Shown: positions 147-5,757 of the stretch, one piece after another
Position numbering within the stretch: the stretch's first letter is position 1
Layout of the letters: the number at the start of each line of letters is the position of its first letter
Notes under the pieces: model-generated
Databases searched by the model: none
What the model was told of the DNA's origin: nothing
Seen by the model: the letters and a program-made list of their open reading frames with translations, nothing else
Assembly: GCA_018816345.1 (NCBI GenBank)
Contig: JAHIWG010000125.1
Location: 1-39,745 of the forward strand
Length of the DNA: 39,745 bases
DNA from: Spirochaetota bacterium
GTDB taxonomy: Bacteria > Spirochaetota > Spirochaetia > Treponematales > UBA12059
Direction: 5' to 3'
Made by a program: the position numbers and the translations under genes

Positions 147-157
147 CGGCGTTCTCC
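125..157 (-). terminator. Hairpin at the 3' end of the ABC-F gene
   Basis: Bases 125-135 and 147-157 form a perfect 11-bp GC-rich stem with an 11-nt loop, beginning at the stop codon of the ABC-F gene. One arm belongs to the second 73-bp repeat and the other is unique sequence. There is no T-run, so it may be an RNA-stabilising or Rho-assisted 3' structure rather than a textbook intrinsic terminator. Confidence 0.4.
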
Positions 158-1791
158 TATATCTCGGCTACCACGTGTCCGTGGTAGTACTGGTCGCGTA
201 GGGCCTTGACCTGGTCGTCCTTCAGGTACTCGTCGAATTTCATCATGCGGTCTATGACGCCGCCCGGGCAGAACTCGACTATGCGGTTAGCTATCGAGTT
301 CACGAACTCGTGGTCGTGGCTCGTGAACAGCACTATCCCGGGGAACTCCATGAGGCCGTTGTTGAGGGCGGTTATCGACTCGAGGTCGAGATGGTTGGTC
401 GGCTCGTCTAGTATAAGGCAGTTCGCGGCCTGGAGCATCATGCGGGAGAGCAGGCATCGGACCTTCTCTCCTCCGGAGAGGACGCGCACCGGCTTCAGGG
501 CCTCGTCGCCGGAGAATAGCATACGGCCCAGGAACGAGCGTATATAGGTCTCGTCGTCGCTCGAGGTGTAGCGCTTGAGCCAGTCGACGATCGTGTCGTC
601 GGAGTCGAAGAGGGCGGCGTTCTCCTTGGGGAAGTACGAGGAGCTCATCGTCTGGCCCCACGAGCAGTCGCCCGAATAATCCTTCTCCTCGCCGGCGAGT
701 ATCCTGAAGAAGGCGGTCTTGGCCAAGTGCTCTCGCCCGACGAAGGCGATCTTGTCGCCCCTGTTGACTACGATGTCGAGCTTCGACAGGACGGGCTTGC
801 CGTCGGCGAGCAGCGTCACGTCCCTGAGGCTGACGACGTTATTGCCCGGCTCGCGGTCCGGCTTGAAGCCGACCCAGGGGAAGCGCCTCGTCGTCGGCTG
901 CATGTCCTCGACCTCGAGCTTGTCCAGGACCTTGCGGCGGCTCGTAGCCTGGCGGCTCTTTGCGGCGTTCGACGCGAATCGCTGGATGAATTCCTTGAGG
1001 TCCTTGATCTTGTCCTCGCGGCGCTTCTTCTCGTCCTTCATCTGGGACTGGAGCATCTTGGAGACCTTGTACCAGAAGTCGTAGTTGCCGGGGTACTGGC
1101 GGATGAGGCCGAAGTCGATGTCGCATATCTGGGTGCAGACGGAGTTGAGGAAGTGCCTGTCGTGGGATACGACGATGACGATGTTCTGGAAGTCCATGAG
1201 GAATTCCTCGAGCCAGGTTATGCTGTCGAGGTCGAGGCCGTTGGTCGGCTCGTCGAGGAGCAGGATATCGGGATTGCCGAAGAGCGCCTGGGCCAGCAGC
1301 GCGCGCACCTTGAGGCTCTCGGTAACCTCGCGCATCGGGCGCTCGTGCTCGGTCGAAGGGACCCCGAGGCCGGAGAGCAGGATGCTGGCCTGGGCCTCGG
1401 CCTCCCATCCTCCAAGTTCAGCGAATTCGCCTTCGAGCTCGCTGGCCCGTATGCCGTCCGCCTCGCTGAAGTCCTCCTTCGCGTAGACGGCCTCTCGCTC
1501 CTTCATGATGGCGTACAGCTTGTCGTAGCCGCGGATGACGACGTCGACGAGGCGCTCGTCCTCGAACTCGAAGTGGTCCTGCTTCAGCACCGCCATCCGG
1601 AGCTTGGGCGGGTAGGAGACCTGGCCGAAGTCTGGCTCGAGCTCTCCCGAGAGCACCTTTAGGAAGGTGGACTTTCCCGAGCCGTTTGCGCCGATGATGC
1701 CGTAGCAGTTGCCGGGCACGAACTTCAGGTTGACGTCCTTGAATAATATGCGCTCGCCGAAGCCGAGCTTGAGATCGCTGACATTGATCAA
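157..1791 (-). CDS. ABC-F family ATPase (YkpA/YbiT type)
   Basis: This is a soluble twin-ATPase of the ABC-F family, whose members act on the ribosome as translation factors rather than as transporters. The first nucleotide-binding domain has a good Walker A (GANGSGKST) and Walker B (LLLDEPTNGLD), but its signature is degenerate (TESLKVR). The linker (about residues 230-300) is rich in Lys, Arg and Glu. The second domain has a degenerate Walker A (GREHLAKTAF) but an intact LSGGEKVR signature and LILDEPTNHLD. As far as I recall this asymmetry is typical of the YkpA/YbiT group. I place the start at a TTG at 1791 (544 aa) because an AAGGAA ribosome site precedes it and a good promoter lies at 1835-1863; the longer ATG reading from 1863 would begin inside that promoter. 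Confidence 0.9.
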   Translation of the reverse strand: MINVSDLKLGFGERILFKDVNLKFVPGNCYGIIGANGSGKSTFLKVLSGELEPDFGQVSYPPKLRMAVLKQDHFEFEDERLVDVVIRGYDKLYAIMKEREAVYAKEDFSEADGIRASELEGEFAELGGWEAEAQASILLSGLGVPSTEHERPMREVTESLKVRALLAQALFGNPDILLLDEPTNGLDLDSITWLEEFLMDFQNIVIVVSHDRHFLNSVCTQICDIDFGLIRQYPGNYDFWYKVSKMLQSQMKDEKKRREDKIKDLKEFIQRFASNAAKSRQATSRRKVLDKLEVEDMQPTTRRFPWVGFKPDREPGNNVVSLRDVTLLADGKPVLSKLDIVVNRGDKIAFVGREHLAKTAFFRILAGEEKDYSGDCSWGQTMSSSYFPKENAALFDSDDTIVDWLKRYTSSDDETYIRSFLGRMLFSGDEALKPVRVLSGGEKVRCLLSRMMLQAANCLILDEPTNHLDLESITALNNGLMEFPGIVLFTSHDHEFVNSIANRIVEFCPGGVIDRMMKFDEYLKDDQVKALRDQYYHGHVVAEI

Positions 1792-1834
1792 GGTTTGTTC
1801 CTTATATACCGTAGGATTCCGTAGCCGTATGCGA

Positions 1835-1863
1835 ATAATGACGAAAAAACGCGAGAAACGCAA
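1835..1863 (-). promoter_or_regulatory. Sigma-70 type promoter for the ABC-F gene
   Basis: On the minus strand TTGCGT (1858-1863) and CATTAT (1835-1840) are separated by 17 bp. The predicted start site lies about 35-40 nt before the TTG start at 1791, which supports that start over the ATG at 1863. Confidence 0.5.
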
Positions 1864-1902: not shown

Positions 1903-1930
1903 TTGACACGGAACTATTCGATCGTATACG
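1903..1930 (+). promoter_or_regulatory. Sigma-70 type promoter for the Cas2-like/prfB operon
   Basis: A perfect TTGACA (1903-1908) is followed after 16 bp by TATACG (1925-1930), or after 18 bp by TACGAT (1927-1932). The predicted transcription start at about 1937-1939 coincides with the ATG at 1938, implying a leaderless message. Confidence 0.6.
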
Positions 1931-1937
1931 ATGCTAT

Positions 1938-2225
1938 ATGTTCGTGTCAGTCGTTTGCGACCTAGGCGGAGAAGACTCTAGGGCGGCCGTGTACGGCCTC
2001 CTCCCGCAGTACGGCTTCGAGAAGGTACAGCGCGCCTGTTTCGAGAGCTCTCGCGCCAGCGAGAAGCAGGTCGCCGCGCTCAAGCGCGATATCGACAAGG
2101 TGACCGACTACTACGATACCGTTCGTATCTACCAGTATCCAATAGAAGGGCGGCTCGCCGTTTCGATCCTCAAGGAGAATCGATGGAAGCGGGTCGTCGT
2201 GCGCGCGCCCTCGGCCGAGAAATAA
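1938..2225 (+). CDS. Orphan Cas2-like small protein
   Basis: This is a 95-residue protein with the layout of Cas2/VapD-type ferredoxin folds. A first beta strand ends in an aspartate (VVCD, Asp8), where Cas2 enzymes carry the conserved metal-binding Asp. A helix with R15 and the LLPQYGF segment follows, then KVQRACFES, a Leu/Lys-rich helix (ALKRDID) and the strand DTVRIYQYP, which matches the SVRIY-type strand of Cas2. No cas1, other cas gene or CRISPR array is visible in the window. No Shine-Dalgarno sequence precedes the ATG, and the predicted transcript starts at the start codon. prfB begins 28 nt downstream, so the two are probably cotranscribed. The family assignment rests on pattern recognition alone; whether it is a nuclease or only shares the fold is open. 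Confidence 0.65.
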   Translation: MFVSVVCDLGGEDSRAAVYGLLPQYGFEKVQRACFESSRASEKQVAALKRDIDKVTDYYDTVRIYQYPIEGRLAVSILKENRWKRVVVRAPSAEK

Positions 2226-2253: not shown

Positions 2254-3388
2254 ATGCTCGACGATCTAGCCGCTCCGATAGCGCAGCTCAAGAAAGAAGT
2301 CCTCGAAATCTGGGGGCGTCTTTGACGCCGCGACTATTCGCTCCAAGATAGAGACGAAGGAATCCCAATCGTCCGAGCCCGGTTTCTGGAACGACCAGAA
2401 GCGTTCCGAGCGGGTCATGGGCGAGCTCAAGATACTACGCAACCGCCTCGAGACCTGGGAGGAGATAAAGCGCTCCACCGACGCCTTGGACGAGGTCTTC
2501 GGCATGGCCATGGAAGAGGACGGCGCGTCCCTGGAACCCGAGATCCGGGAATCGTACGCGGCGATAAGCGCCCGCTTCGAGAAGGCCGTGACGCTCGAGC
2601 TCATGACCGGCGAGGCGGACAGGGCCAGCGCGTTCCTGTCTATCCACGCCGGCTCCGGAGGTACCGAGGCCTGCGACTGGGCGGGCATGCTGTTCCGCAT
2701 GTATACCAGGTGGGCCGAGCGGCAGGGCTTCAGCTACGAGGTAGTCGACATGCTCGAGGCCGAGGGCGGGATCAAGAGCGTCACTATCCAGATCGACGGC
2801 CCCTACGCCTACGGCCACCTCAGGACCGAGTCCGGCGTCCATCGCCTCGTGCGCATCAGCCCCTTCGACGCGAACGCCAGGCGGCATACGAGCTTCGCGA
2901 GCGTCTCTACCTTCCCCGTGATCGACGACACGATAGACGTGACGGTCAAGCCCGACGAGATACGCATCGACACCTACCGCGCGGGCGGCGCCGGCGGGCA
3001 GAAGGTCAATAAGACCGATAGCGCCGTACGCATCACCCACCTCGCGACGGGCATCGTCGTGACCTGCCAGAACGAGCGCAGCCAGCACAAGAACAAGGAC
3101 GTGGCGATGTCAGTCCTTAAGAGCCGCCTCTACGACCTGTACCGCAAGGAGAAGGACAAGGAGAACGAGAAGTACCAGGGCGACAAGAAGGAGATAGCCT
3201 GGGGCTCCCAGATCCGCTCCTACGTGTTCCAGCCCTATACCATGGTGAAGGACCACAGGACCAAGTTCTTCGTCGGTAATATCCAGGGCGTCATGGACGG
3301 CGATATCGACCCGTTCATCGATTCCTACCTGCACTTCCTCTGGAAGGGCGGCACTGTCCAGGCCGACGGCGACGACGACGAGGATTGA
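2254..3388 (+). CDS. prfB: Peptide chain release factor 2 (programmed +1 frameshift)
   Basis: RF2 recognises UGA and UAA stop codons and triggers peptide release. The ATG at 2254 follows a GAGGAAG ribosome site and opens 23 codons that end at an in-frame TGA (2323-2325) in the classical CTTTGAC context. The G-rich stretch before it (2312-2316) is the usual internal Shine-Dalgarno-like stimulator. A +1 slip on CTT continues with GAC at 2324 and reads on to 3388, giving 377 residues in all, close to the usual 365. The codon-recognition tripeptide SPF (RISPFDANARRHTS) and the catalytic GGQ (GAGGQKVNKTDSAVR) are both present. The frameshift is the known autoregulatory device: abundant RF2 terminates at the UGA and scarce RF2 allows slipping. 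Only the downstream part appears as one open frame (from an internal ATG at 2417). Confidence 0.97.
2311..2326 (+). promoter_or_regulatory. Programmed +1 frameshift site in prfB
   Basis: The string TGG GGG CGT CTT TGA C combines an internal Shine-Dalgarno-like G-run, the slippery CTT codon and a UGA stop followed by C. This is the conserved RF2 recoding signal. Confidence 0.95.
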
Positions 3389-3395
3389 CGGCGCG

Positions 3396-4859
3396 ATGGG
3401 AAGGCTCTCGCGATCCTCGGGCCCCGCGGCGGCTCCGTTGCTGGCCTTCTCCCTATCGCTATTGTCTACGGTCCTCGCCCGGGCCGAGCCCCTCGTCATA
3501 GCGTGGGCGGAGCTGGAGTCGGGCGACCTCGCGGACGGCTATCGGAACGCGGCGACGCTCGTCCCTCGTCAACTGATGTCGGAGATGGGCTTCGTGGGCG
3601 TACGGTACCCGGGCGACGATGAAGTCTCATCGGTCGAGCTCAAGCGCTCCGCCGAGGCCATGGAGTCGGCGAGGAAGGCCGTGGCCGACGCGCGGGCCAA
3701 GCGCGACCTCGCGGCCCTGTCGGTACGCGATCCCGGGAAGCGGGCGGCCGATATAGTAGCGGCGGACGCCGCCGTCGAGAAGGCCCGGGCTCACCTCGAC
3801 GAGCTCATATCCGCCGAGGCGCTCGCTGGAACGGAGCCGCCCGAACCGAACGGAGCCCCCGTCTCCTATGAGCTAAGACGCTGGGCCGAGCACGACTCGG
3901 GCTCCTTATTCCCCGTCGCGCCCGATCCGGCCGCCGCCTGCGCGGAGAAGAAGGTGGACGTGCTCGTGCACGGCAGGCTCGATTCGAAGGGCGATTACCT
4001 AGTCGTCGAGCTCTCGGTCTTCGTGGCCTCGCTTGGCCGCGATATTTGGACGGGAACCGAGTACGCCTACGCGGACGGCCTACAGGATCTGGTAGGCGCT
4101 CTCGTACGCCCGGCGGCCGAGGCCGCGCTCGGCCGGCCGTATTCGCGCGTGGCCTTCAGGATAGATCCTCCTCAAGCGGACCTGTACGTAGACGGCAAGC
4201 GCGTACTCGATTCCGATGTCCTCTACTTCGAGCCCGGCGAGCACGAGGCGCAAGCCCGAGCCGGCGGCTGGGCTCGTTCCGGCGCTTTCTTCGTGGTCGT
4301 GCCCGGCGAGGACGCGTTCGTCTCCTTAAGCCTCGAGGAAGAGACGGTGCCGGGATTCACCCTGCGCAGCCTTCCCTCCGGCGCCTCGGTCTACCTGGAC
4401 GGAAGCCTCGCCGGCGTCTCGCCCTTCGAAATGCCCGGCTTCGCCTATCCTAGGGTCGCGCGCATCACCATGCCAGGCTACGATGACGCTCAGCTGGTCG
4501 TCAGGCCAGAGCTCCTGATGGAGGATACGGAGATCGCCTTGCTCCCGTCGGACGGGCTATCGTTCGACGATAGGTTCGACGATCGCAAGGGCGCCTTCTA
4601 TCGCTCTCTCGGCTTGTTCGTCGTATCCCTGCCCGTCACGGTGCTGTCCGGTGGTTTGTTCCAGACATTCTACGCCACGCTCGTCGAGGCTCAAAAAAAG
4701 CAAGCCGAGGGTGATACTAGCATCGAAACGGCGATCGAAAGGCTGAACAGCGAGTACTATACGACCCAGACGGTATTCTGGGTCTCCGCGGCGGCTTCCG
4801 CCGGTTTCGCGGCGAACGCTATAATCCAGCTCGTCCGGTACATCGGCGCGTCCCAATGA
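3396..4859 (+). CDS. Exported PEGA-domain membrane protein
   Basis: This 487-residue protein has a signal peptide (about residues 1-28, ending LARA). A charged Ala/Lys/Glu-rich segment follows (about 85-130), probably a coiled coil. Two PEGA-like beta modules come next, one near residues 250-300 (PPQADLYVDGKRV) and a clearer one near 325-370 (LRSLPSGASVYLDGSLAG, then PGY). Two hydrophobic segments near the C-terminus (about 408-435 and 460-484) look membrane-spanning. PEGA domains are small surface or periplasmic beta modules; no enzymatic motif is visible. The gene starts 7 nt after prfB and ends 22 nt before ftsY, so it is in the same transcription unit. Its function is unknown. Confidence 0.75.
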   Translation: MGRLSRSSGPAAAPLLAFSLSLLSTVLARAEPLVIAWAELESGDLADGYRNAATLVPRQLMSEMGFVGVRYPGDDEVSSVELKRSAEAMESARKAVADARAKRDLAALSVRDPGKRAADIVAADAAVEKARAHLDELISAEALAGTEPPEPNGAPVSYELRRWAEHDSGSLFPVAPDPAAACAEKKVDVLVHGRLDSKGDYLVVELSVFVASLGRDIWTGTEYAYADGLQDLVGALVRPAAEAALGRPYSRVAFRIDPPQADLYVDGKRVLDSDVLYFEPGEHEAQARAGGWARSGAFFVVVPGEDAFVSLSLEEETVPGFTLRSLPSGASVYLDGSLAGVSPFEMPGFAYPRVARITMPGYDDAQLVVRPELLMEDTEIALLPSDGLSFDDRFDDRKGAFYRSLGLFVVSLPVTVLSGGLFQTFYATLVEAQKKQAEGDTSIETAIERLNSEYYTTQTVFWVSAAASAGFAANAIIQLVRYIGASQ

Positions 4860-4881: not shown

Positions 4882-5757
4882 ATGATGAGGTTCGGGGATA
4901 AGATAAGGAAACTGCTCGGCATGGAGGTCGTAGGCGACGACGACTGGGACGACCTCGCCGACCTGCTCGTCGAGGGAGACCTGGGGGCCGCCTTCTCGGA
5001 GGAGGTCGTCTCCGAGCTCAAGGCCTCCTGCGCCCGCTCCGGCGTCAAGAACGGCGACGGAGCGAGGCGAGCGCTGAAGGCGATGCTCTCCGGCTACGCG
5101 CGCTCCGTCTCGATAGCGCCGACCCCAGGCGGGCTGAACGTAGTCATGCTCCTGGGAGTCAACGGCGTCGGCAAGACCACGACTTCCGCCAAGCTGGCCA
5201 AGTACTGGATAGATCGCGGCGTTTCCTCCAAGGCCATACTCGCGGCGGGCGACACGTTCCGGGCGGCGGCCATAGAGCAGCTCAGGGCCCACGGTGAGCG
5301 CCTCGGAGTCCGCGTCGTCGCCCAGGAACGCGGTTCCGATTCCGGGGCCGTGCTGTACGACGCGCTCGATTCGGCGGCCGCCGACGGCTCCGACCTCGTC
5401 ATAGCGGATACCGCGGGCCGAATGCACACTAAGCAGAACCTGATCAAGGAACTCGAGAAGATGGACAAGATCGTAGCCGCGAAGGCGGATCCGTCCAGGT
5501 ACAGGCGATTGCTCGTCGTGGACGCGACGACGGGGCAGAACGCCCTGAGGCAGGCGGAGGCCTTCGCCGAGGCGGTCAGGATAGACGGCCTCGTTCTGAC
5601 GAAGTACGATTCGAGCGCCAGGGGCGGGATAGCCATCGCCATAGCCAAGCGCCTCGGGATACCTACCGCCTTCGTCTGCGACGGCGAGCGCTACGAGGAT
5701 ATCCGGCCCTTCGACGCGGATACGTATCTCGACGAATTCCTCGGGCTCGGGTCGTGA
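4882..5757 (+). CDS. ftsY: Signal recognition particle receptor FtsY
   Basis: FtsY is the SRP receptor GTPase that docks ribosome-nascent chains at the inner membrane. The protein has 291 residues: a short N domain (about 1-80) and a G domain with the P-loop GVNGVGKTTT (92-101), the SRP-specific insertion region (AAGDTFRAAAIEQL), DTAGRMHT and TKYD. The long acidic A domain of E. coli FtsY is absent, as is common outside enterobacteria. A strong AAAGGAGA site precedes two adjacent ATGs (4882 and 4885); either could be used. The stop codon overlaps the next start (GTGA). Confidence 0.95.
   Translation: MMRFGDKIRKLLGMEVVGDDDWDDLADLLVEGDLGAAFSEEVVSELKASCARSGVKNGDGARRALKAMLSGYARSVSIAPTPGGLNVVMLLGVNGVGKTTTSAKLAKYWIDRGVSSKAILAAGDTFRAAAIEQLRAHGERLGVRVVAQERGSDSGAVLYDALDSAAADGSDLVIADTAGRMHTKQNLIKELEKMDKIVAAKADPSRYRRLLVVDATTGQNALRQAEAFAEAVRIDGLVLTKYDSSARGGIAIAIAKRLGIPTAFVCDGERYEDIRPFDADTYLDEFLGLGS

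Follow-up and report, generated by a model that had tools for sequence, protein, structure and literature searches.

The open reading frame at positions 1938-2225 of the window (the whole stretch of 39,745 nucleotides of spirochaete DNA that was analysed) encodes a stand-alone Cas2-fold protein, here called Cas2L, which belongs to a single-copy, Spirochaetota-wide family and is not a CRISPR adaptation gene. Its fold, its family, its linkage to prfB, the spacing of its promoter and its independence from CRISPR are all supported by computation. The explanation that we prefer, with somewhat more confidence than doubt, is that Cas2L is a largely vertically inherited, non-CRISPR housekeeping protein that would bind nucleic acid and be made together with release factor 2 (RF2) from a leaderless transcript. 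The finding is sound, and the family proved to be broader and more cohesive than a sequence-only reading could reveal. The features on which the following account draws are these:

157..1863, minus strand: ABC-F type ATPase gene, divergent, outside the conserved unit
1903..1932, plus strand: predicted Cas2L promoter, TTGACA, 18 nt, TACGAT; the -10 element ends 5 nt before the ATG
1938..2225, plus strand: Cas2L, stand-alone Cas2-fold protein of 95 aa, identified by PF09827, an AlphaFold2 model and structural matches
2254..3388, plus strand: prfB, the gene for release factor 2, standing second in the operon and translated with a +1 programmed frameshift
2320..2326, plus strand: programmed frameshift site of prfB, CTTTGAC, conserved in relatives
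3396..4859, plus strand: PEGA-domain protein, operon neighbour
4882..5757, plus strand: ftsY-like SRP receptor gene, named from sequence, its linkage tested

Cas2 fold and active-site residues

The reading frame opens with ATG and closes with TAA, and its product is matched by PF09827 (CRISPR_Cas2) with an E-value of 1.2e-8 and a score of 35.5 bits, the Pfam cut-off being 23.8. The PADLOC Cas2 models concur, the NCBIfam cas2 equivalog TIGR01573 is just missed (22.5 versus 24.5 bits), and PF09827 is matched by 21 of 24 aligned family members, with E-values of up to 0.1. An AlphaFold2 monomer model built from a 24-sequence alignment reached a pLDDT of 94.2, and its top structural matches (Foldseek, VIA-align) were all Cas2 chains, with Z up to 10.7, followed by VapD chains at Z about 8 and, below these, by PaaX at 7.2. 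A resemblance to Cas2 beyond chance, which a sequence-only reading of the window had proposed, is thereby confirmed: a structure comparison that might have yielded no Cas2 or VapD fold found the Cas2 fold.

The closest known proteins are the CRISPR Cas2 proteins SSO8090 (3exc), PF1117 (2i0x) and TT1823 (1zpw), which share with Cas2L the ferredoxin-like fold, an acidic residue closing strand 1 and a similar size, at 27-30% identity over the aligned part. Unlike them, Cas2L has no cas1 partner, lies in a conserved prfB operon and falls in a separate clade; it has also lost the serine of QxS, Tyr7 and the arginines of helix 1, and has gained YQxP and a C-terminal W83-K/R-R/K. A Cas2-like domain is also present in a non-CRISPR transcription regulator as the middle domain of PaaX (8a39), but PaaX is a multi-domain protein and Cas2L consists of the single domain alone.

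The residues were compared between 83 distinct Cas2L sequences and 28 CRISPR Cas2 sequences from spirochaetes, listing the commonest residues and leaving unused the columns around positions 58-67, where strand-4 residues of CRISPR Cas2 are gapped in the mixed alignment. Seven residues (E36, K49, D57, Y65, Q66, P68, and W83) are invariant across the 83, and the family signature reads K49, D57, Y65-Q66-x-P68, W83-(K/R)-(R/K). Position 8, which is that of the catalytic Asp of Cas2, is acidic in all 83 sequences (74 Asp, 9 Glu), and position 35 keeps its aromatic residue. Tyr7 is missing from nearly every sequence, Asp (at 13) and Ser or His (at 14) take the place of the helix-1 arginines, and position 33, a Ser in 28/28 CRISPR Cas2 (QxS), is almost always Ala, Asn, Asp or Gly in Cas2L. 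The Cas2 pattern noted in the sequence-only reading therefore stands at Asp8, but the VQRACFE stretch is not an intact Cas2 motif, the QxS serine never being the commonest residue in Cas2L. In SsoCas2, the residues important for RNase activity are Tyr9, Asp10, Arg17, Arg19, Arg31, and Phe37 (PMC9510766). When these six are matched by eye to Cas2L, SsoCas2 being outside the alignment, the acid and the aromatic residue are kept, the Arg31 position is mostly Lys or Arg, and the Tyr and the helix-1 arginines are lost. Judged by these alignments, Cas2L keeps the fold and one acid, not the known catalytic set. The mean calculated pI of the family, 8.5 (range 5.1-9.9), is only mildly basic, a point against the binding of RNA or DNA.

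These residues bear directly on one rival reading, that Cas2L is a stand-alone Cas2-type endoribonuclease resembling an mRNA interferase, which would use its pair of Asp8 residues in RNA turnover or stress. The acid present in every sequence and the aromatic residue at 35 are in its favor, as is the activity of non-CRISPR Cas2/VapD relatives, namely the DNase BPSL1038 (PMC10491678) and the RNase LinCas2C (PMC9510766). Against it, Asp8 is Glu in nine sequences, Tyr7 is mostly lost, and the helix-1 arginines and the Ser are replaced. Because of these losses, nuclease activity of Cas2L cannot be assumed; the losses nevertheless do not exclude an RNase, because LinCas2C, which comes from an array-less locus, retained much RNase activity even in mutants including D8A (PMC9510766). 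BPSL1038, of a Burkholderia Cas2/VapD nuclease sub-family, is, like Cas2L, a chromosomal Cas2-fold protein without CRISPR that keeps a catalytic-type Asp; compared by description, it carries a reported D-SST motif (PMC10491678), whereas Cas2L is without the Cas2-invariant Ser and has the link to prfB. Overall, nuclease activity appears possible for Cas2L but is not implied by its residues, and we regard the endoribonuclease reading as a serious one that nonetheless falls short of being probable.

The prfB operon and its promoter

The stop codon of Cas2L is separated by 28 nt from the ATG of prfB (2254) on the same strand. This placement ahead of prfB, pointed out in the sequence-only reading, holds far beyond the window, since prfB lies directly downstream on the same strand in 87 of 89 genomes checked. 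A survey of spirochaete genomes for this linkage, which that reading had suggested, found a same-strand prfB after Cas2L in 58/60 class-level carriers from the phylum set, 44-461 bp away as measured to the profile match, the exceptions being a Cas2L at a contig edge (G274) and a prfB on a separate contig (G252). The linkage also holds in 29/29 further genomes from many families, a few of which repeat loci of the 28-locus close-relative search described below. In relatives, the gap between the two genes is mostly 4-60 nt, the frameshift site CTTTGA(C/A) is kept in nearly all prfB genes, and the order prfB-PEGA-ftsY-lolC is widely kept downstream of Cas2L. The ftsY order is the same in relatives with and without Cas2L. 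The ABC-F gene was ruled out as a functional partner: it adjoins Cas2L in the closest relatives only, and upstream genes are otherwise not conserved.

Against the preferred reading, the tie to RF2 does not hold everywhere: seven deep-branching carriers (families f18, f31, and f44) keep Cas2L away from prfB, there with a Shine-Dalgarno-like leader. The neighbors at these loci (TPR, DUF3047, OmpA, O-antigen ligase, and peptidase M3) have no clear common theme.

Upstream, only 5-8 nt separate the end of the -10 element from the start codon of Cas2L in 48 of 49 distinct sequences and in 28 of 30 further loci, and spacing this short predicts a leaderless transcript. Such mRNAs occur commonly in Leptospira interrogans, which is also a spirochaete (PMC5243855). 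A strict form of the promoter-to-ATG pattern occurs at 45 sites in the genome that carries the window, compared with 4 for a reversed control, so that the Cas2L promoter has a few dozen counterparts there. No RNA element in the operon leader matched Rfam.

The sequence-only reading had also held co-transcription of Cas2L and prfB to be probable, and it remains so in view of the conserved anatomy; in addition, no terminator was found between the two genes. The strongest case for the Cas2L promoter driving prfB as well comes from relatives that are without Cas2L at the locus and retain prfB-ftsY (L068, L069, and L074), in which a promoter-like sequence, judged by eye, stands before prfB either directly (L069 and L074) or roughly 80-110 nt off (L068). 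A search near prfB in seven loci without Cas2L there revealed no degenerate Cas2L, even with filters off. As a separate observation, the prfB start in L069 and L074 appears to lie about 6 nt after the -10 element, so that prfB itself is apparently leaderless there. In two other relatives (L025 and L026), no prfB start was found in the short stretch from the stop codon of Cas2L to the prfB frameshift site, which suggests that the two genes overlap.

This anatomy invites the reading that Cas2L regulates its own operon, binding the transcript or the promoter and adjusting the expression of RF2. Cas2L is the first gene, its promoter-to-start spacing is tightly kept, its gap to prfB is short, and a perfect palindrome, ATCGTATACGAT, lies over the -10 element of the window. 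This palindrome, however, is not kept past the closest relatives and may be a -10 element common to divergent promoters; in addition, prfB already has its own frameshift autoregulation, and deep-branching Cas2L genes are unlinked to prfB. We therefore consider own-operon regulation unlikely.

The palindrome itself is 12 bp long (1921-1932), and on the minus strand it forms a promoter-like site that faces the divergent ABC-F gene. It was rejected as an operator: the same genome holds 2 exact sites and 14 with one mismatch, and farther relatives do not keep the palindrome.

Family distribution and independence from CRISPR

A search reaching close relatives alone found 28 Cas2L loci, in spirochaetes only. 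Profile searches found the gene in 67 of 345 phylum genomes, one copy in each, and in 143 of 395 class genomes, spread over 68 of 133 genera; Treponema lecithinolyticum (L022) is a named carrier. More than half of the genomes of the class are thus without Cas2L, and for this reason it is not essential in general. Where present, it is under strong purifying selection (dN/dS about 0.03-0.13 for unsaturated pairs). In a tree, a 99/99 branch separates all 56 Cas2L sequences from 28 CRISPR Cas2 sequences of spirochaete genomes, the inner forks being weak since the alignment is short on columns. Inheritance largely follows host relationships. Searches of plasmid, phage, and viral collections revealed no Cas2L, and PHROGs gave no match.

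The reading of Cas2L as the VapD-like toxin of a toxin-antitoxin pair starts from the common fold of VapD and Cas2 (PMC3150331), and Haemophilus influenzae VapD (6zi1 and 6zn8; Z about 8) is indeed, like Cas2L, an example of the Cas2-like fold outside CRISPR. The identity between the two is about 10%, however, and Cas2L is single-copy, largely host-following and not mobile; no antitoxin-like partner is seen, upstream genes being unconserved and the downstream gap leading mostly within 4-60 nt to prfB. A toxin is thus highly improbable, and of the VapD likeness raised in the sequence-only reading, the shared fold survives but the affinity does not, as VapD ranks under Cas2 and neither an antitoxin partner nor a mobile context was seen.

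The absence of cas1 and CRISPR near the gene, which the same reading had asserted, holds at the locus: no cas1 was found on the window contig (PF01867 and TIGR03638) and no CRISPR-like array in the window. It does not extend to the genome as a whole, whose sole cas1 lies on contig C41 (L160, 1-6000) in a type I-E locus with cas1, cas2e, and an array. This array comprises at least 10 repeats of 29 nt, CGGTTCATCCCCGCGTCCGCGGGGAACAC, at 61-nt spacing, and is followed by cas2e (PF09707, 117 bits) and cas1. Since the genome has a cas2e, Cas2L is not a missing Cas2. Five further ORFs after cas1 resemble, by eye, cas6e, cas5e, cas7e, cse2, and cas8e. Across the family, 24 of 67 carriers have no cas1 detectable with PF01867, and TIGR03638 regained none. 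Where Cas2L and a cas1 share a contig and their distance was measured, at least 18 kb lie between Cas2L and the nearest cas1, and no cas1-like neighbor was seen at the seven deep-branching loci. The CRISPR Cas2 genes of carriers lie beside cas1, elsewhere than Cas2L, and the survey revealed no complete CRISPR-Cas locus adjoining Cas2L in relatives.

Given the type I-E locus in the same genome and the naming of PF09827 as CRISPR Cas2, Cas2L might be a second Cas2 that serves a distant CRISPR system in trans, or a remnant of such a system, but the cas2e of the C41 locus, the carriers without cas1, the separate clade and, for a remnant, the strong purifying selection have already largely refuted this reading, the least probable of all.

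Proposed role of Cas2L and further observations

In the preferred reading of Cas2L as a housekeeping protein, it would occupy, in Spirochaetia, the promoter-proximal position of a prfB-(PEGA)-ftsY-lolCDE operon, and the leaderless transcript predicted from the conserved anatomy would run on into prfB. By analogy with other Cas2-fold proteins, Cas2L would form a homodimer with two Asp8 side chains at the interface. We infer that this dimer binds nucleic acid, most likely RNA, and acts at translation or mRNA turnover, the tie to translation being drawn from its production together with RF2; it may also cleave RNA weakly. Since a conserved set of residues particular to the family stands in place of a large part of the catalytic residues, the function that has been conserved may be binding and not cutting. 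The more specific proposal, that a Cas2-fold protein now serves as a translation-linked factor, RNA-binding or regulatory, and is co-produced with RF2 from a conserved leaderless mRNA, is put forward tentatively, as an idea that we rate below an even chance.

Cas2 has been proposed to descend from toxin nucleases, and to our knowledge little is known about the roles of Cas2-fold proteins outside CRISPR. A conserved non-CRISPR Cas2 family tied to RF2 across much of a class provides a natural test case, and if the translation-linked role is true, Cas2L would represent a housekeeping use of the Cas2 fold beyond immunity and toxins. It should also be noted that PF09827 matches labelled "CRISPR Cas2" in spirochaetes need not signify CRISPR. 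No published description of Cas2L, or of a cas2 with prfB, was found in the literature searched, nor were "orphan", "solo" or "standalone" cas2 found as terms there (preprints and most subscription papers lay outside the scope of both searches).

Finally, two minor observations concern the surroundings of the gene. Similar large proteins (MDN.xFxID..CFLI...), for which no Pfam match was found, are encoded near Cas2L in two deep-branching genomes (L061, 1176-3602, and L064, 2635-5130). At the contig end, positions 1-149 of the window hold, possibly as an assembly edge artefact, two perfect copies of a 73-bp unit.
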